This document shows, piece after piece, positions 29,572-37,858 of a stretch of DNA of 64,000 bases (the first letter of the stretch is position 1; every line of letters starts with the position of its first letter). This DNA comes from Rhodococcus pseudokoreensis (GTDB taxonomy: Bacteria > Actinomycetota > Actinomycetes > Mycobacteriales > Mycobacteriaceae). Where the stretch lies: contig NZ_CP070619.1 in the NCBI RefSeq assembly GCF_017068395.1, forward strand, positions 4,650,001-4,714,000. The letters are read 5' to 3'. Below the pieces are notes generated by a model, which was given only the letters and a program-made list of their open reading frames with translations, was not told the DNA's origin and ran no database searches. A program made the translations under genes and the position numbers.

Positions 29572-29766
29572 GTTGTGTACACAGGCTGGTTTGAACACCG
29601 GGTAGCTAATCCCTAACGTCGTCCCGGCGTGTCTCGCAATCACGACGCCGGCTGCCACGAAGAGCCTGCGAAAGTTGTCGGTGGGGGCGAGTACAAAGAG
29701 TTCGTAGCACCAACACCGGGAAGCTTTTCCCGGGGCGGCGCAACAGTGATGGGGAAGGTCGGTCGA

Positions 29767-31914
29767 GTGGCTGTAGTAGACGATCGGGGCCATTCCGAAT
29801 ACCCGGGTCCGCCCGACGCGGAGCCCGGTGAAGAGTTCGGCCGGCAGCCCCCTCAGGACATGGCGGCGGAGCAGTCGGTGCTCGGCGGCATGCTCCTCAG
29901 CAAGGACGCCATCGCAGACGTGCTCGAGGTGCTCCGTCCCGGTGACTTCTACCGTCCCGCGCATCAGTCGGTGTACGACGTGATCCTGGACCTCTACAGC
30001 CGTGGTGAGCCGGCTGACCCGGTGACGGTGTCCGCGGAACTCGATCGTCGCGGCGAACTCCGCCGCATCGGCGGCGCGCCGTACCTGGTGACGCTCACCC
30101 AGACGGTGCCCACCGCCGCCAACGCCGGCTACTACGCCGAAATCGTGGCGGAGAAAGCCATTCTGCGTCGCCTCGTCGACGCAGGCACCCGCATCGTCCA
30201 ATACGGCTACACCGGAGCCGACGGCCAGGACGTCGCCGAGGTCGTCGACCGCGCGCAGGCCGAGATCTTCGAGGTCACCGAACGCCGCACCACCGAGGAC
30301 TTCGTGCCCCTCGAAGAACTCCTGCAGCCCACGATGGACGAGATCGACTCCATCGCCAGCCGCGGCGGCATCTCCCTCGGCGTACCCACCGGCTTCGTCG
30401 AACTCGACGAAATCACCAACGGCCTCCACCCCGGCCAGATGATCATCGTCGCGGCGCGACCCGGTGTGGGCAAGGCGCTCGCCCTCGACACTCCCCTGGC
30501 CACCCCGACCGGCTGGACCACCATGGGCGACGTCCAGGTCGGCGACCACCTCATCGACGCCGACGGCAAACCCACCCGCGTCGTCGCCGCCACCGACGTC
30601 ATGGTCGGCCGGCCCTGCTACGAGGTGGAATTCTCCGACGGCACCGTCCTCGTCGCCGACGAGCAGCATCAGTGGTTGACTGCCGTCGACGGCCGGGGCG
30701 CCGTGCGCACCACGGCTCAGATCGCCGGATCGACCGACCTCGGGCACGAGGTCGCGCACACCCGCGCACTGCAGCTGCCGACGTCGACCGTGCACGTCGA
30801 CCCCTACGCTCTGGGGGCCTCGCTCACCGCCGGGGGCAAGCGAATCCCGGCGGAGCTGCTGCGTGGCTCGGAATCGGAGCGTCGCGAGTTGCTGGCCGGC
30901 CTGCTCGACGCGGCAGGGTCGGTCGCCGACGACGGCTCGGTGTGGTTCCAGGCCGGGAATCACCCGTTGTCGCAGGATCTCGCCGAACTCGTCGTCAGTC
31001 TCGGATACGACTGCCGTAGTGCCGACGGTGGTGTCACGTTCTGCGCCGACGACGAGGTGTTCCAGCTTCATCGGAAGGCCATCCAGCACAAAGAGCTTCG
31101 GGGCGAGGTGAGTGGCTCGCGCCGCATCGTCGCGGTACGTCCGATCGACAGTGTCCCGGTGCGGTGCGTCGAGGTCGACAACGCCGACCATCTATACCTG
31201 GCGGGTCGTTCGATGGTGCCCACCCACAACTCCACGCTCGGCATGGACTTCCTGCGTTCGTGCTCCGTGAAGCACGGCATGGCCAGCGTCATGTTCTCCC
31301 TCGAGATGAGCAAGACCGAGATCGTCATGCGTCTGCTGTCGGCAGAGGCGAAGATCAAGCTCGGCGACATGCGCTCCGGCAAGATGACCGACGACGACTG
31401 GACGAAACTCGCTCGCCGTATGAGTGAGATCAGTGAGGCGCCGCTGTTCATCGACGACTCCCCCAACCTGACCATGATGGAGATCCGCGCCAAAGCGCGG
31501 CGGCTCAAGCAGAAGCACGACATCAAACTGATCGTGATCGACTACCTCCAGCTGATGAGCTCCGGTAAGAAGGTCGAATCACGTCAGCAGGAAGTCTCCG
31601 AATTCTCACGTAGCCTCAAGCTCTTGGCGAAGGAACTCGAAGTTCCCGTGGTTGCGATCTGCCAGCTGAACCGTGGTCCCGAACAGCGGCAAGATAAGCG
31701 CCCGCAAGTCGCTGACCTGCGCGAAAGCGGCAGTCTCGAGCAGGATGCCGACATGGTGATCCTGCTTTACCGCCCCGATGCGACCGAACGCGACGACCCC
31801 CGCGGCGGCGAGGCCGACCTCATTCTCGGCAAGCATCGTAACGGTCCGACCGCGACGATCACCGTGGCGCACCAGCTCCACCTGTCCAAGTTCGTGGACA
31901 TGGCGAGAGGTTAG
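29767..31914 (+). CDS. dnaB: Replicative DNA helicase DnaB, interrupted by an intein
   Basis: 715 residues including a 252-residue intein (residues 237-488). GTG 29767 is chosen because VAVVDD matches the usual mycobacterial N-terminus and GGGGAAGG lies 8 bp ahead; in-frame starts back to 29629 add an unrelated leader. N-extein: N-terminal domain (DMAAEQSVLGGMLLSKDAIA) and linker up to the P-loop RPGVGK. C-extein: STLGMDFLRSC onward, with VIDYLQLM (Walker B), CQLNRGPEQRQDKRPQVADL and SLEQDADMVILLYR. The intein splits the Walker A between Lys and Ser, so the helicase is inactive until splicing yields the 463-residue product. DnaB unwinds DNA at the fork and recruits primase. Confidence 0.96.
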   Translation: MAVVDDRGHSEYPGPPDAEPGEEFGRQPPQDMAAEQSVLGGMLLSKDAIADVLEVLRPGDFYRPAHQSVYDVILDLYSRGEPADPVTVSAELDRRGELRRIGGAPYLVTLTQTVPTAANAGYYAEIVAEKAILRRLVDAGTRIVQYGYTGADGQDVAEVVDRAQAEIFEVTERRTTEDFVPLEELLQPTMDEIDSIASRGGISLGVPTGFVELDEITNGLHPGQMIIVAARPGVGKALALDTPLATPTGWTTMGDVQVGDHLIDADGKPTRVVAATDVMVGRPCYEVEFSDGTVLVADEQHQWLTAVDGRGAVRTTAQIAGSTDLGHEVAHTRALQLPTSTVHVDPYALGASLTAGGKRIPAELLRGSESERRELLAGLLDAAGSVADDGSVWFQAGNHPLSQDLAELVVSLGYDCRSADGGVTFCADDEVFQLHRKAIQHKELRGEVSGSRRIVAVRPIDSVPVRCVEVDNADHLYLAGRSMVPTHNSTLGMDFLRSCSVKHGMASVMFSLEMSKTEIVMRLLSAEAKIKLGDMRSGKMTDDDWTKLARRMSEISEAPLFIDDSPNLTMMEIRAKARRLKQKHDIKLIVIDYLQLMSSGKKVESRQQEVSEFSRSLKLLAKELEVPVVAICQLNRGPEQRQDKRPQVADLRESGSLEQDADMVILLYRPDATERDDPRGGEADLILGKHRNGPTATITVAHQLHLSKFVDMARG
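30475..31230 (+). mobile_element. DnaB intein, class 3-like, with degenerate homing endonuclease
   Basis: The intein starts with Ala (ALALDTPLATPTGW), not Cys or Ser, and ends VPTHN before the +1 Ser of the P-loop. Trp67 (block B, DEQHQW), Cys231 (block F, VPVRCVEV) and Thr250 (block G) form the WCT triad described for class 3 inteins, which use the block F Cys as first nucleophile; Asn252 is the cyclising residue. The middle retains remnants of LAGLIDADG motifs: ALGASLTAGG and LLAGLLDAAG. The acidic catalytic residues expected in both are gone, and the linker between them is very short. It should splice but not home by itself. Confidence 0.88.
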
Positions 31915-32147
31915 GCAACCAGCAGCCCACCACCTGCGAGATGGCCGGCTTCTCGTCCCAACGGACGTTTCGGTGACCGGCTTGTCGGCCCGAAGAGGCG
32001 CTTCCATATGATGAGTGCGTCGGACGCGCCGGTGTCCGCGAGTCGCGAAACGGGTCCGGTGATCCAGGTCACCGCTGGTCGAACGGTTACGCCCGCCGGC
32101 ATCCGACCAAGGACACACCACATAAGCCGGGAAGGCAGACAAGCGCA

Positions 32148-33608
32148 GTGAGCACAGTGGAACTGGCCCAGTGGAACTCCGAGGAAGCTCTCGCGGAGGC
32201 GATGATCCCGATCATCGGCGGCCTGCACCGCCGACACTCGGTGACCATTCTGCTTCACAGCCGCTCCCTGGTGAACAAGTCGGTCATCAGTATCCTGCGA
32301 ACCCACCGTTTCGCCCGGCAGATCAGCGGCGACGAGCTGTCGGTCGAGGAGACGTTCCCCTTCCTCGAAGCGCTCACTCACCTCGACCTTCGGCCCTCGA
32401 AGATCGACCTCGGACTGCTGGTGATGGCCTACCGCGCCAATGGTGACGGAGCATCGGTCCCAGAGTTCGTTGCACGGAGCCTCGCCGACCTGGTCGGCGG
32501 CGCTCAGACGAGCCCCGCGCAGCCGCAGGACGTGGTCCTGTACGGATTCGGGCGTATCGGTCGCCTCGTCGCTCGACTGCTCATCGAGAAGGCCGGCTCG
32601 GGTAATGGGCTGAACCTGCGTGCCGTGGTGGTCCGCAAGGGTGGCAGCGACGATCTGACCAAGCGCGCATCGTTGCTGCGCCGTGACTCCGTCCACGGGC
32701 AGTTCAACGGCACGATCAAGGTCGACACCGACAACAACACGCTGATCGCCAACGGCAACGTCATCAAGTTTATTTACAGCAACGACCCGGAGAGCCTCGA
32801 CTACACCGAGTACGGCATCGACAACGCCATCCTGATCGACAACACCGGAATCTGGCGCGACCGCGACGGACTGTCGAAGCACCTCCGCCCCGGCGTCGCG
32901 AAGGTGGTGCTCACCGCGCCCGGCAAGGGCGACGTCCCGAACATCGTGCACGGCGTCAATCACCGCGACCTCGACCCGAACGAGCAGATCGTGTCGTGCG
33001 CGTCCTGCACTACCAATGCAATCGTCCCGCCGCTGAAGACCATGGACGACGAATTCGGTGTGTCGCGAGGCCACGTCGAGACCGTGCACTCGTTCACCAA
33101 CGACCAGAACCTACTGGACAACTACCACAAGGCCGACCGTCGTGGTCGTTCGGCGCCGTTCAACCTCGTGCTCACCGAGACCGGTGCCGCGTCGGCGGTC
33201 GCCAAGGCGCTCCCCGAGCTGAAGGCCAAGATCACCGGCAACTCGATCCGCGTTCCCACTCCGGACGTGTCCGTCGCCATCCTCCACCTTCAGCTGAATC
33301 GTGAGACCACCAGGGAGGAGGTGCTCGAGCACCTCAGCCAGGAGTCGCTCACCGGAGCGCTGAGCCGGAACCTCGACTACACCGCTGCAACCGATGCCGT
33401 GTCCAGTGACTTCATCGGTTCGCGCGCCGCGTGCATCGTCGACGCGAACGCGACGATCGTCGACGGCGACACCGCCATCCTCTATGTCTGGTATGACAAC
33501 GAGTTCGGATACTCGTGCCAGGTGGTGCGCACTGTCCAGTACCTGTCCGGTGTGGAGTACCCCATCTACCCCGCGGTCGACGCCGCTGATGCGATGCCCG
33601 TGGGCTGA
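32148..33608 (+). CDS. gapB: Glyceraldehyde-3-phosphate dehydrogenase with N-terminal extension (GapB type)
   Basis: A 486-residue enzyme. Residues 1-125 are an extra domain (SEEALAEAMIPIIGGLHRRH) found in the long corynebacterial GapB-type enzymes. Then comes the GAPDH proper: NAD(P)-binding VVLYGFGRIGRLVARLL, active site CASCTTNAIVPPLK with nucleophile C287 and a C-terminal WYDNEFGYSCQVV. GTG 32148 follows GGGAAGG. By analogy with Corynebacterium GapB it may serve gluconeogenesis; cofactor preference is not determined here. A perfect hairpin follows the stop. No other glycolysis gene is adjacent. Confidence 0.93.
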   Translation: MSTVELAQWNSEEALAEAMIPIIGGLHRRHSVTILLHSRSLVNKSVISILRTHRFARQISGDELSVEETFPFLEALTHLDLRPSKIDLGLLVMAYRANGDGASVPEFVARSLADLVGGAQTSPAQPQDVVLYGFGRIGRLVARLLIEKAGSGNGLNLRAVVVRKGGSDDLTKRASLLRRDSVHGQFNGTIKVDTDNNTLIANGNVIKFIYSNDPESLDYTEYGIDNAILIDNTGIWRDRDGLSKHLRPGVAKVVLTAPGKGDVPNIVHGVNHRDLDPNEQIVSCASCTTNAIVPPLKTMDDEFGVSRGHVETVHSFTNDQNLLDNYHKADRRGRSAPFNLVLTETGAASAVAKALPELKAKITGNSIRVPTPDVSVAILHLQLNRETTREEVLEHLSQESLTGALSRNLDYTAATDAVSSDFIGSRAACIVDANATIVDGDTAILYVWYDNEFGYSCQVVRTVQYLSGVEYPIYPAVDAADAMPVG

Positions 33609-33629
33609 CCGGCGACACCGTAGGTTCGC

Positions 33630-33666
33630 GACGCCCGGGAGAGCAGTGGCTGCTCTCCCGGGCGTC
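33630..33666 (+). terminator. Terminator after gapB
   Basis: GACGCCCGGGAGAGCAG (33630-33646) and CTGCTCTCCCGGGCGTC (33650-33666) are perfect reverse complements with a TGG loop, 22 bp past the gapB stop. Confidence 0.9.
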
Positions 33667-34229
33667 TTCGTGTATGCGGTGGACGTCGCCGCTGAAAGCT
33701 CATAGCGGAAGCCGTAGTTCGAGCGGCGGCGCCATCCCTCTTGGGGTGGCGCCGCCGTTGTGATTGTGGCTGCGTATCCCGGCCCTGTTGTCGTCGGACG
33801 CATCGCTATTACCCTCCTAGGCTTCGAAACCCGTCATCGGTGGCCCGTAGCGCCGGCACTCGAACCCGCTCCCTCGCGTATCTACGCTCAGTGGAGCGTG
33901 AGCGCTTCGGTGGGTGGCCGACCTCGCGGGGTGACTTGGAGGGTGTCGTCGGTTCTGCACTCGGAAATTCCTACCTTGGCGGCGATGCAGATCTTCTCAT
34001 CATCATTCGGGTCGATGATTCACGAAATATGTTGTAGCCGTCAGAAATTAATCGCACAACGATGTCGACCATGAACGTCCATCGCTGCACCCGCTCGCTG
34101 TTTCGGGCAACTGTGGGGATCTCTCGTTGTGATCGGTAAATCCCTGCTCCATATTCTCCAAAACATGTTGCACCGCAGCAATTTTAGATACACTCCTTCA
34201 AATGGGGAACCAAAACAGGGGGAGTGGTC
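33667..34229. other. Non-coding stretch with second hairpin, start of accessory region
   Basis: A second hairpin, CGGCGGCGCCATCCC (33724-33738) with GGGGTGGCGCCGCCG (33743-33757), 14 of 15 paired, is followed by TTGTGATTG and could back up the gapB terminator. A small inverted repeat ACGCTC-AGTG-GAGCGT lies near 33888. Base composition drifts to lower GC from about 33960. Short ORFs here run through the hairpins and look fortuitous. Nothing else is recognised before the intein-like gene. Confidence 0.5.
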
Positions 34230-35597
34230 ATGAGTGGGGAAACGGGATCGACTATCGACGGCGCACCGGAAGTCAATCCGGAGAGATCGAGTTCTTCGAG
34301 GTTTGCTTCAGGCATACCTTCGTCTGCGCGTGTGTTGCGCGCCGACACCGGAGCGCCCGTCGGATTGAGCGAGATCGCGTGTTCGACTGAACCGCAATGC
34401 GTGTGGTCGTTAGGTGAGGATCTGCGAATGGTCGCCAGTCCTCTGGGAAAGGTTATCCCTGTCGGAATGGCCGACGTTCTCCGAGTGCATCTCGCGTCGG
34501 GTCGTCAGATCGAACTGTCGCGCGATCAGGAGTTCAGAGCGGTGACAGGCTGGATTCCGCTGAGAGAGCTGGAGATCGGTCAACGACTGGCTATACCGCG
34601 ATACATTCCCGAGCCAATTCATGGGACGCGACTTGCCGATGCTGAAATCATTTTGCTGGCGCACATGATCGGGGACGGATCTTGCGTTAAGCGCCAGCCG
34701 ATTCGCTACGCGTCGATCGATGAAGAGAATCTCGCCGCTGTAGCAACGGCGGCCACCCACTTCGGTGTCACCGCGATTCGTGACGAGTACGCTGCTGCGC
34801 GCTGTATCACACTCCGATTGCGAGCGCCCTACAGGCTCGGGCATGGCAAGCGCAATCCTATTGCGGCCTGGCTCGATGAACTTGGACTGTTCGGGTTGCG
34901 CAGCTATGAGAAGTTTGTTCCCAAAGCGGTATTCGATGTTGGGAACGATCAAGTTGCGCTCTTCCTGAGGCATTTGTGGGCCACGGATGGCTCGGTTCGG
35001 TGGGACGAGAAGGGGAATCAGGGTCGCGTGTATTACGCGTCGACGAGCCGGCGCTTGGTCGACGATGTCGCGATACTGCTGCTACGGCTCGGCGTTCACG
35101 GACGGATCAAACGGGTGCGTAAGGCGGGCTATCGTGATTGCTGGTTCTTGACGATTGACGGCGTCCAGAACCAGACACAGTTTCTCTCCGTGGCGGGTGT
35201 GCATGGCGCCAGGGGCGAATCTGCGCGAAGGGTACTGGGGGAGCTTTTGTCGTTGGCTCCCAACACGAACGTAGACACCATTCCGAAGGAGATCTGGGTT
35301 AGCGTACGTCAGATCCTTGCGTCGCAAGGCGTCACCTATCGTGAATTCGCGGCAGCAATGAACACCAAATTCTGCGGATCGACTCTGTGGAAGCATGGCG
35401 TGAGCCGTTCGCGACTCGCCAAGGTCGCAGAGTTTCTCGACGACGACAGCCTCAGGGTCCTCGCCACAAGCGACGTGTTCTGGGACAGAGTCGTGGACAT
35501 CGTGAGCGGGGGTGCGCAGGAGGTATTCACCTGCCCCGTGCTTGGCGCAGACAACCTCGTCGTAGACGGCGTTGTCGTGCGGCAGGCTCGGCAATAG
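34230..35597 (+). CDS. Free-standing intein-like Hint/LAGLIDADG homing endonuclease
   Basis: A 455-residue protein from ATG 34230, five bases after GGGGGAG. It is laid out like a full DnaB/DnaE-class intein without host: N-terminal Hint half (ARVLRADTGAPVGLSEI, WSLGEDLRMVASPLGKVIPV, LRELEIGQRLAIPRYIPEP), then a two-motif LAGLIDADG endonuclease with both acidic residues kept (LLAHMIGDG and FLRHLWATDG), then a C-terminal Hint strand (EVFTCPVLGADNLVVDGVVV) ending VRQARQ. Splicing residues are missing: no Cys/Ser1 in the block A position, SRDQEF where TxNHPF is usual, and RQ instead of HN. It should cut DNA but not splice. Composition is more AT-rich than neighbours. The target site is unknown. 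Confidence 0.82.
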   Translation: MSGETGSTIDGAPEVNPERSSSSRFASGIPSSARVLRADTGAPVGLSEIACSTEPQCVWSLGEDLRMVASPLGKVIPVGMADVLRVHLASGRQIELSRDQEFRAVTGWIPLRELEIGQRLAIPRYIPEPIHGTRLADAEIILLAHMIGDGSCVKRQPIRYASIDEENLAAVATAATHFGVTAIRDEYAAARCITLRLRAPYRLGHGKRNPIAAWLDELGLFGLRSYEKFVPKAVFDVGNDQVALFLRHLWATDGSVRWDEKGNQGRVYYASTSRRLVDDVAILLLRLGVHGRIKRVRKAGYRDCWFLTIDGVQNQTQFLSVAGVHGARGESARRVLGELLSLAPNTNVDTIPKEIWVSVRQILASQGVTYREFAAAMNTKFCGSTLWKHGVSRSRLAKVAEFLDDDSLRVLATSDVFWDRVVDIVSGGAQEVFTCPVLGADNLVVDGVVVRQARQ

Positions 35598-35621
35598 GCC
35601 CACTCGACGGTCGACCGTGGC

Positions 35622-35654
35622 GAGCACCCGGGCTCTTCAGTTGCACGGGTGCTC
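35622..35654 (+). terminator. Possible terminator of the intein-like gene
   Basis: GAGCACCCG (35622-35630) pairs with CGGGTGCTC (35646-35654) across a 15-base loop, 24 bp after the stop. The stem is short, so this is tentative. Confidence 0.4.
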
Positions 35655-36126
35655 TCCCCGGCGCCTCACAAGGTGGCGCGTCGGGTCGGTCGGCGATCGA
35701 CACGATGGTTTGCGCCGCGCCTTCGAGGTTGCCGGGGGTCCAATCGTAGAGCCCAGGTAGTTGGTCGTTGGCCGGCGCGTATGCGTCGATGGTGCGCGAC
35801 GGCTGCACCGCGGATTCACCGAGCCCGGTGTGGAAGACCCCCGGCTCGACGATGGCCACCTGGAGACCGAGGTGAGCCACATCCCGCGACAGTGCCTCGC
35901 TCAGTCCCTCGACCGCGAACTTGGACGCGAACGCAGGCGTCGAGCCGCGGCACGCCGACGAGACCGCCGCCAGAGGAGAAGTTGATGATGTGTCCGCTGC
36001 GGCGCTGCCGCATTCCCGGCAGAACCGCCTTTGCCACCGCGACGAGGCCGACGACGTTGGTTTCGAGCTGGGCTCGGACCTGATCGAGTGAAAGTTCTTC
36101 GAGGGTGCCTTGGACGACATTACCGT
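35640..36126 (-). pseudogene. Decayed short-chain dehydrogenase/reductase (SDR)
   Basis: Two frames on the minus strand together read as the middle and end of a classical SDR. The first frame gives GTLEELSLDQVRAQLETNVV, AVLPGMRQRRSGHIINFSS and GLVGVPRL; the second continues FASKFAVEGLSEALSRDVAH and VAIVEPGVFHTGLGESAVQP. The switch lies near 35928-35940, exactly at the catalytic YxxxK, where the Tyr is lost. The N-terminal Rossmann motif (GxxxGxG) and the NNAG region upstream of 36126 are absent. It is therefore a truncated and frameshifted relic; if the frameshift were a sequencing error, the missing N-terminus would still make it non-functional. Confidence 0.82.
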
Positions 36127-36258
36127 CCCTTCGTAGCATCAACCGTGCCGAGGGCAGAGCGGGTTCACCCGCGGTCGCCGGCGAACACTGCACAATTTTG
36201 CTGACCGCTGTCCGCACCAACCAGGTGCTCTCGAGAGGGGGTACCGCCAGCCCTTGGC

Positions 36259-36516
36259 TCAGGGGTGGTTCCGGACCTGTCGGGCGTCGGGAGTCGATCG
36301 ACCGAAGAGGAAGTAGGCGAGGGGGACGGCGCCAGCCGAGTTGACGAGTGCCACCGCTGTCGCCCAACCCGACTTCGATCCCCTGATCTGGTTTGCCGGA
36401 CGGTGCTTGATGTCAGCAAGTGCCGCGATCTTCAGAACGCCCTCGAAGGCAGCGCCGGCGATGATCAGCCGCCGGCTGCGGTTGCTGAGTTCGCTCCATC
36501 GTCGTCTGGTGACCAT
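36259..36516 (-). CDS. Small PLDc_N-like membrane protein
   Basis: An 85-residue protein. ATG 36516 is preferred to the TTG at 36522. The sequence RRRWSELSNRSRRLIIAGAA leads into the first helix, a loop with RPANQIRGSKSGWA follows, and the second helix ends VPLAYFLFGR. This is the pattern of the short actinobacterial proteins related to the phospholipase D N-terminal (PLDc_N) domain. The function is unknown. It diverges from the ParA gene at 36618. Confidence 0.75.
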   Translation of the reverse strand: MVTRRRWSELSNRSRRLIIAGAAFEGVLKIAALADIKHRPANQIRGSKSGWATAVALVNSAGAVPLAYFLFGRSTPDARQVRNHP

Positions 36517-36576
36517 GAACAAGCGTAGCTCTGGGGAATAGATCGGCGGCTCGTCCGCGTGTCGCGGCGAAGTTAA

Positions 36577-36599
36577 GTATCTTGAGATACCTCAGTATG
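36577..36599. promoter_or_regulatory. Alternating half-site array upstream of parA-like gene
   Basis: GTATC (36577), GATAC (36586) and GTATG (36595) recur every 9 bp in alternating orientation, separated by TTGA and CTCA. Such short regularly spaced half-sites are typical of operators or centromeres bound by small plasmid partition proteins. It ends 18 bp before the parA start and covers its promoter. Confidence 0.5.
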
Positions 36600-36617
36600 T
36601 TTAACCGAAGGGACACC

Positions 36618-37376
36618 ATGACCCGCACCATCGCAGTGGTCAACCATAAGGGCGGCTCGACCAAGACCACGAGCACGGTCAACCTCGCCCAGGCCCTCGT
36701 CGAAGCCGGTTACACCGTCCGCGTCGTCGACCTTGACCCACAATGCAACGCCACCACCTGGCTCGGCGCCACGCCCGAAGCTGTCGACAACGATGTCCTG
36801 TCGGTACTCATGCTGGTGGCGAGTATCGAGGAAGCGACCACCATCACCGCGTCCGGGATCCACCTCGTTCCTGCCACCAAGGAACTCGATTCCGTCGGCC
36901 CCTACTTCCTCAAGAAGCCCGGTGCGCACGGCATCCTGCGCAAAGCCCTCACCAACGCCCCCGACGTCGACTTCAACCTGATCGACTGCCCCGGAGACTT
37001 CGACCACCTGACCATCAGCGCACTCGTCGCCTGCACCGAAGTGCTCGCCGCTGTCATGACGGGCGCCATGGAACTCGAAGCGCTCATGCGGATCGAGAAC
37101 TACATCACCCAGCAGGTCGAGTTGCTCAACCCCACCGCGCGGCTCAATCACATCTTGTGCGGCCGCGTCGAACTCGGCCAGGTCATCGACCAGCAGGTTC
37201 TCGCCGCGCTCCGCGAGACCTACCCCGACCAGACGATGCGCACCATCATTCCGAAGTCCGTCCGTGTCAGCGAAAGCTACAGTGCCGAAGAACCCGTCGT
37301 CAGGTGGGCACCGTCCTCCTCCGCATCACGCGCTTACCGCGACGCCGCCCAAGAGCTCGTCGAAAGGATGCCCTGA
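36618..37376 (+). CDS. ParA-family partition ATPase (plasmid type)
   Basis: A 252-residue Walker-type ATPase. The deviant Walker A is HKGGSTKTTSTVNLA (signature Lys in KGGSTKTT, residues 11-18), followed by VRVVDLDPQCNATTWLG and the Walker B LIDCPGDFDHLTISAL. GAAGGGA precedes ATG 36618. It is short and lacks the N-terminal DNA-binding domain, so it resembles the small type Ib plasmid ParA proteins. A DNA-binding partner gene overlaps its stop (TGATG). Chromosomal ParA is a different gene normally near oriC, so this is probably plasmid-derived and points to an integrated or decayed replicon. Confidence 0.88.
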   Translation: MTRTIAVVNHKGGSTKTTSTVNLAQALVEAGYTVRVVDLDPQCNATTWLGATPEAVDNDVLSVLMLVASIEEATTITASGIHLVPATKELDSVGPYFLKKPGAHGILRKALTNAPDVDFNLIDCPGDFDHLTISALVACTEVLAAVMTGAMELEALMRIENYITQQVELLNPTARLNHILCGRVELGQVIDQQVLAALRETYPDQTMRTIIPKSVRVSESYSAEEPVVRWAPSSSASRAYRDAAQELVERMP

Positions 37377-37858
37377 TGACCGCGACACGTAAGCCCGGAC
37401 TTGCGAGCAACCCCCTCGAACGTCGCCAACAGGCCCGCGCAGGCGCACACCCCGACGGGACGCACTCGAGAACACGTCGGAAGGACCTCCTGGTGGGTGT
37501 GACACGTGAGCCCGGACTCGCGAGCAACCCCCTCGAACGCCGTAAGCGGCGGCTGCCGAACCTCGTCGAACAGTGCGTGGACGTCGCGCAAGTAGCTCTC
37601 GGCGAGGAAAAGATGACCACGAAACGGGTTTCCGCAGGCAAGAAGCAGGTATCCGTCTCCATCGAGCCGGCCAGGGTCGAGCACGGCAAGGACGCCGTCG
37701 CCGCCATCGGCCACATCGCCGGTGCCCCCAGCAGTTGGTCCGACCTCGTCGACGAAGCCGTCGCCCACTACCTCGCAGTTCTCGAACGCAGGTACAACAA
37801 TTGCGAACCCTTCCCTCCGCGCAACGCTGACGTCGTCCGGAGCCCACGCGTCAACTAG
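37376..37858 (+). CDS. ParB-like/centromere-binding partner of ParA
   Basis: A 160-residue basic protein whose ATG shares one base with the stop of parA. The N-terminal part contains an internal duplication, RKPGLASNPLERR and REPGLASNPLERRK, about 42 residues apart. The C-terminal part (KKQVSVSIEPARVEHGKDAV, SSWSDLVDEAVAHYLAVLER) looks like a small ribbon-helix-helix-type DNA-binding module as in plasmid accessory partition proteins. The assignment rests on context and this pattern; no exact family recognised. It probably binds the half-site array upstream of parA. Confidence 0.65.
   Translation: MTATRKPGLASNPLERRQQARAGAHPDGTHSRTRRKDLLVGVTREPGLASNPLERRKRRLPNLVEQCVDVAQVALGEEKMTTKRVSAGKKQVSVSIEPARVEHGKDAVAAIGHIAGAPSSWSDLVDEAVAHYLAVLERRYNNCEPFPPRNADVVRSPRVN

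Follow-up and report, generated by a model that had tools for sequence, protein, structure and literature searches.

The stretch of Rhodococcus pseudokoreensis DNA analysed here, 64,000 nucleotides in length and hereafter termed the window, contains a free-standing gene for a LAGLIDADG endonuclease of apparent intein ancestry, preceded on the same strand by a dnaB gene and a gene resembling those for GAPDH (Table 1). The endonuclease gene has its own start and, as originally predicted, a sequence ahead of it that reads as a good ribosome-binding site; an alternative GTG start at 34224 would extend the product to 457 aa.

Table 1. Features of the locus, in window coordinates
Feature	Position	Strand	Remarks
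dnaB, presumed former host gene and target	29629..31914	+	P-loop site with mini-intein; RESG|SLEQ site empty
Empty insertion site DLRESG|SLEQDAD	31714..31752	+	Junction 31731|31732
GAPDH-like gene	32148..33608	+	Between dnaB and the endonuclease gene
Stretch with counterparts in genome G006 (the gene, preceded by part of its upstream region)	33704..35597 (approximate)	+	
Ribosome-binding-like AGGGGGAG	34217..34224	+	5 bases 5' of the ATG; judged from sequence
Intein-derived LAGLIDADG endonuclease gene, free-standing	34230..35597	+	455 aa from ATG
Possible N-extein trace	34305..34313	+	Ala-Ser-Gly rather than Glu-Ser-Gly, immediately ahead of where the intein formerly began
N-terminal Hint region, degenerate (no block B TxxH)	34326..34613	+	
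Catalytic Asp codon 1 (LLAHMIGDG)	34674..34676	+	
Catalytic Asp codon 2 (FLRHLWATDG)	34986..34988	+	
C-terminal Hint region, degenerate (no terminal His-Asn)	35445..35585	+	

The predicted protein is homologous in sequence to Hint-LAGLIDADG inteins and has their full domain order (N-terminal Hint, LAGLIDADG endonuclease, C-terminal Hint). In NCBIfam it scores best against the DnaB model NF005852, with 482.9 bits for residues 29-453, short of the cut-off of 780; in the PDB, every one of the six sequence matches with E <= 0.1 is an intein, five being from DnaB. Pfam detects a single family in the protein, LAGLIDADG_3 (E 1.5e-23), and no C-terminal zinc finger, and no Rfam match was found at 31800-36600. 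In an alignment with 74 intact dnaB inteins, Cys1/T/N/H/His/Asn are replaced by G/S/D/Q/R/Q, such that Cys/Ser1, the block B TxxH and the terminal His-Asn are all absent, while the two motifs typical of LAGLIDADG homing endonucleases keep both catalytic Asp residues, in IGDG and ATDG. The original prediction of an independent protein with an intein's architecture, intact endonuclease motifs and no splicing residues is therefore borne out. No extein is fused to the protein, as the frame opens only 12 codons ahead of the first start codon, and the gene is not in-frame within an extein gene. The possible N-extein trace is a short match, identified by eye.

A number of trivial origins were considered and rejected. 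The gene is not the in-frame remainder of a disrupted extein gene, as it carries no fused extein and the upstream dnaB is intact; nor is it an assembly artefact, as an 86% identical protein is found in genome G006. A plasmid or phage origin was likewise discarded: phage matches share 23-31% identity with the window protein (best 15 of 20), four of five plasmid matches share 21-27%, and the fifth, at 61%, is an intein within an 885-residue DnaB on a Nocardia farcinica replicon; no free copy on a phage or plasmid record was found among the matches listed.

The absence of a host protein, as originally proposed, thus holds with respect to fusion but not to the neighbourhood, as the intact dnaB 2.3 kb upstream is the gene that hosts the intein in relatives, with that intein's site here empty. 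The dnaB start in Table 1 is the start codon of the open reading frame list, and the true start probably lies downstream of it. The empty site is silently recoded, its flanking Ser codons being AGC and AGT, and differs at 12 of 42 bases from the consensus of Rhodococcus dnaBs not linked to a free gene. The P-loop site of the same dnaB is filled by a 252-residue mini-intein (30475-31230) with Ala as its first residue, in which Pfam found no endonuclease family, and which seems, by eye, to show the Trp/Cys/Thr pattern typical of class 3 inteins. The GAPDH-like gene has a long N-terminal extension; it likewise lies 3' of dnaB in G001 and G019, and was not found within the stretches fetched from G006 and G020. 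At the 3' end of the locus, an open reading frame on the reverse strand (35527-36120) aligns with just a portion of the short-chain dehydrogenase family and is possibly truncated, and a ParA-like ATPase (PF13614) is encoded at 36582-37858, with repeats resembling KPGLASNPLERR after it.

The closest embedded relatives of the window protein are large dnaB inteins at DLRESG|SLEQD, with approximately 50-65% identity. Among the best 120 of 1352 homologues some possess DnaB domains and others lack them, several of the latter, from Rhodococcus and Nocardia, being titled only 'LAGLIDADG family homing endonuclease'. By whole-genome search, the protein family is present (E <= 1e-60) in 48 of the 401 genomes covered from the taxonomic family, and in 55 of 198 from a Mycobacterium-like genus; most of the matches sit within extended frames, as inteins inside dnaB would. 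Twenty-two distinct free-gene loci, including that of the window, were assembled from Rhodococcus, Nocardia and Mycobacterium on the basis of endonuclease similarity rather than neighbourhood, with duplicates counted once (L100 = L137; L130 = L149) and G481, whose match is partial and abuts the edge of a contig, left out.

In 21 of these 22 loci dnaB is present on the same fetched stretch, the exception being Nocardia concava (L106), whose free gene is carried by an 11-kb contig. Measured from the dnaB stop codon, the closer end of the frame lies within 353 bp in 18 of the 21, and at 2.3 kb (window), 4.0 kb (G331) and 4.7 kb (G241) in the remainder; in G232 and G055 the start codon follows the stop by just 6 bases. 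The two genes share a strand in 19 cases and are convergent in two. One of the convergent endonucleases (L149, in G027) lies directly beside a dnaB whose RESG|S site holds a divergent intein of 38-40% identity; the RESG|SLEQ site is unoccupied in the other 20 linked dnaBs. Rather than an isolated orphan, as had been thought, the window gene is one of a recurrent class of free genes adjoining dnaB in three genera. The version first put forward, in which a free nuclease derived from an intein has an unrelated target or insertion site of its own, might be suggested by the gene's position in the window after the GAPDH gene and not directly after dnaB; the counterpart of the same stretch in G006, which begins 9 bp past the dnaB stop, and the general proximity of dnaB make this highly improbable.

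A quick-method tree built from the endonuclease part of 70 rows requires five changes of the free label, at least three of these on starred branches, although the count may be four, as P0093, one of the 'free' rows, keeps block B and may be a fragment of a dnaB intein. The free proteins form one Nocardia-Rhodococcus group and separate Mycobacterium groups, all with members adjoining dnaB. Such a tree does not by itself separate gain from loss; since return to a spliced insertion seems unlikely, the free state is best read as the outcome of repeated escape, on at least three occasions, from an embedded intein. Traces of exteins accompany some of the genes. In L214, 49 residues belonging to a second C-extein (82% identity) lie just 3' of a broken endonuclease. 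Short C-extein matches of 13 and 16 residues (E about 1e-3) are found 3' of the gene in L142 and L144, which are not certain to be relics as chance short matches reach E 2e-4 (L200); no C-extein copy was found 3' of the endonuclease gene in the window. In L137, 18 bp resembling the end of the N-extein, in ordinary codons, lie 5' of the free gene, while the locus's own dnaB site is recoded; this DNA stub is clearer than the trace in the window, and was seen in L137 alone. Separately, in L146 (G248) dnaB is intact, with a right half-site that looks recoded, and 7.4 kb 3' of it lie a C-terminal intein half and a second C-extein.

The residues of 44 free rows, with broken copies left out and with two pairs (L111/P0102 and L138/P0109) that do not differ over the region compared, were contrasted with those of the 74 intact dnaB inteins. 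Each catalytic Asp is retained in all 44 free rows, whereas Cys1 persists in 3 of the 35 with a residue there, the block B His in 5 of 44 and the terminal Asn in 4 of 44; by contrast, Cys1, the block B Thr and His and the last His-Asn are present in 74/74 inteins, one of which has lost a catalytic Asp. One 460-residue protein without an extein, P0029, still has every splicing residue checked. Ratios of dN/dS were calculated by the Nei-Gojobori method for eight free pairs and six intein pairs; saturation affects several dS values and some sequences enter two pairs, making individual ratios approximate. Across the free pairs, the endonuclease part gives 0.06-0.12, with the N-terminal Hint (0.11-0.54) above it in all seven computable pairs, two of them by <= 0.03, and the C-terminal Hint (0.08-0.50) above it in five of six. 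The corresponding values for the intein pairs are 0-0.09 for N-Hint, 0.03-0.07 for C-Hint and 0.04-0.17 for the endonuclease, while the window gene and its G006 counterpart give 0.24, 0.22 and 0.10, respectively. On these ratios, constraint in the free genes is displaced from Hint to endonuclease, and the nuclease is under purifying selection.

Purifying selection would also be expected had the nuclease been kept for another job, such as cutting invading DNA or binding DNA without cutting it, with proximity to dnaB merely reflecting its birthplace. The gaps of 2.3-4.7 kb in three strains fit such an explanation, and there is a precedent in WhiA, described in the WHO element literature (PMC7282813) as a LAGLIDADG-derived, non-cutting regulator. 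Nevertheless, both catalytic Asp residues are invariably retained in the 44 free rows, every separate free group has members adjoining dnaB, and the silent divergence centred on the insertion point, detailed below, would not be anticipated; such a role is considered unlikely.

Insertion sites were compared between 20 linked dnaBs (excluding L106, with its dnaB-less contig, and G027, with its occupied site), 94 unlinked dnaBs and 67 occupied by inteins. The unlinked set comprises 24 Rhodococcus dnaBs, drawn from 28 genomes of which the others are two carriers, G027 and G009 (no match); 34 from Nocardia, 33 among the matches listed plus G248; and 36 from Mycobacterium, a hand-picked, non-random set with many members close to L136. 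L088, labelled as an Acidobacteria MAG, was placed with Mycobacterium by its intein-bearing dnaB. At least 9 of 42 bases depart from the genus consensus in 18/20 linked and 26/94 unlinked dnaBs (Fisher 2.7e-7, ignoring kinship and with the cut-off set after the data were seen), a comparison favouring the unlinked dnaBs because the consensus derives from them; the excess has p <= 0.0035 at all cut-offs from 6 to 13. When 14 codons are slid along the gene, the excess in linked dnaBs peaks at the insertion point (5.0 bases), with a second peak of 3.9 at +29; most placements show some excess, amounting to 0.0-3.0 for those whose first codon is -20 or further upstream. Linked dnaBs of Nocardia show greater divergence along the whole gene.

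The type of codon is also altered. AGY Ser codons occur at position -2 in 7/20 linked and 10/94 unlinked dnaBs (p 0.012), and at position 0 in 13/20 and 18/87 (p 0.0002); no such enrichment was found in 15 other conserved Ser columns (lowest p 0.25), in 13 of which the codon family is near-invariant. Linked dnaBs have a lower GC3 around the site, measured against the 5' part, than unlinked ones: p is 0.0002 in Nocardia and 0.003 in Mycobacterium, and the lowering at the two linked Rhodococcus sites is non-significant (p 0.24, n=2). Among Rhodococcus dnaBs, mismatches number 12 and 10 in the two carriers, 9 in G020, which has no gene but in which the upstream stretch is left, 4 in G001, with a gene remnant, and 0 in G019 and G024, with no gene. 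Two linked dnaBs, L138 and L144, have just 7 and 8. In the closest pair, the window and G001, 6 of the 10 codons from -9 to 0 differ against 25/213 elsewhere, with a p value of 0.0006 for that post hoc stretch and 0.06 for any stretch. Tests that take account of kinship are weak: nearest-neighbour comparisons allowing for overall divergence give p values of 0.04 in Rhodococcus (n=2), 0.09 in Nocardia and 0.16 in Mycobacterium, and eight independent tree pairs on supported branches favour recoding with the gene by about 4:1 (median p 0.375). A second naive-like site in the window genome was looked for and rejected, the 68-base naive site of G019 matching at full length only dnaB (79%) among the matches listed.

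The 26 of 94 unlinked dnaBs that are equally recoded, for example L216, L217, L224 and L239, are read as survivors of lost elements, although no clear relic of gene or C-extein was found near them within the stretches fetched. Intein-occupied Mycobacterium sites are divergent too, chiefly in the right half, and do not differ detectably from linked ones in codon surprisal (p 0.68) or GC3 (p 0.21); across all occupied sites, AGY is found at codon 0 in 29/67 and at -2 in none. As a separate observation, seven of the 36 unlinked Mycobacterium dnaBs (L232, L233, L235-L238 and L240) have Ala for Ser at +1 of the insertion site, a change that should also block intein splicing. Recoded sites without the gene, this substitution and the four broken copies among the 22 free genes (G055, G405, G493 and G130) could together be accommodated if hosts had recoded dnaB against intein homing and the free gene were the decaying remnant of an expelled intein. 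This, however, is rated a decidedly slim prospect: most fetched copies are open, the endonuclease is constrained as Hint decays, and the free gene is patchily distributed, its presence switching 17 times across the best tree for 114 dnaBs, 20 of them carriers, which suggests turnover over simple decay.

The window gene is instead probably a homing endonuclease gene that left a dnaB intein and spreads by cutting naive dnaB genes. The ancestor would have been a large intein at DLRESG|SLEQD, whose nuclease moved downstream of dnaB as an independent gene, shedding its splicing residues, and may still recognise the intein-free site. A nuclease with that specificity can persist beside dnaB only if that dnaB is uncut; the linked copy would be spared by its silent site differences or, in G027, by another intein filling the site. 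On encounter, a dnaB with the ordinary site would be cut and the break repaired from element-bearing DNA, such that the linked recoded copy would replace the 3' part of the gene and the endonuclease gene would be copied in together with the resistant end. The unoccupied and often recoded state of the linked dnaBs and the recurrence of the arrangement in three genera argue for such a dnaB-tied homing element over an orphan or domesticated nuclease; of the two roles first suggested, self-propagation thus stands as a possibility and domestication is disfavoured.

The nearest known relatives are the actinobacterial inteins at the RESG|S site of dnaB, which is also the site of the Ssp DnaB intein. 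With these (P0007, for instance, at 62% identity) the window gene shares full-length homology, domain order and endonuclease motifs, and from them it differs in lying outside dnaB, in the loss of splicing residues and in the relaxation of Hint. In pairing a nuclease directed against an essential gene with a linked, recoded and uncut copy, the proposed arrangement resembles Cleave and Rescue drives, which are engineered and use Cas9; if the interpretation is correct, the pairing here is a natural drive, in which the recoded copy is dnaB itself. The seg endonucleases of phage T4 belong to the GIY-YIG family and are not intein-derived. As described in the literature on intronless homing (PMC2988022), these free-standing enzymes similarly lie outside introns and inteins and achieve excess inheritance, but are phage genes. 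HO of Saccharomyces is also a stand-alone nuclease of intein origin; according to PMC7282813, it is a domesticated, zinc finger-bearing enzyme that cuts MAT, whereas nothing indicates a host role for the window gene.

The closest parallel is with the WHO elements of the yeasts Torulaspora and Lachancea, which act on FBA1, and for which cleavage and allele-specific resistance have been demonstrated (Coughlan et al. 2020, PMC7282813). Both are intein-derived endonucleases without exteins, encoded by independent genes 3' of the target (a presumed one in this case) in either orientation; in both, broken copies occur. The linked allele of WHO elements is divergent and of established resistance, and that of the free genes appears divergent too, strongly so when kinship is ignored and weakly when it is taken into account; the extra 3' fragments of the target gene beside the WHO element in some strains have a clear counterpart in L214, and short ones in L142 and L144. 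The window gene differs in being bacterial, in having no detected zinc finger, in the lack of multi-gene clusters among the loci fetched, in being most closely related to inteins of the adjoining gene itself rather than of another gene, in a free state that, on our reading of the tree, arose more than once, and in its cleavage being only predicted. It may thus work like a WHO element by analogy, without being a WHO member, given its bacterial host, the lack of a detected zinc finger and its separate origin from a dnaB intein. No prior report of free dnaB-intein endonucleases in bacteria was found in the literature searched, which excluded most subscription journals. If correct, this interpretation may account for the Nocardia and Rhodococcus proteins labelled only by endonuclease family; the extein stub, old extein copies and free protein with splicing residues would represent intermediates in the exit of a nuclease from its intein, and homing elements of the WHO and HO type would extend to bacteria.
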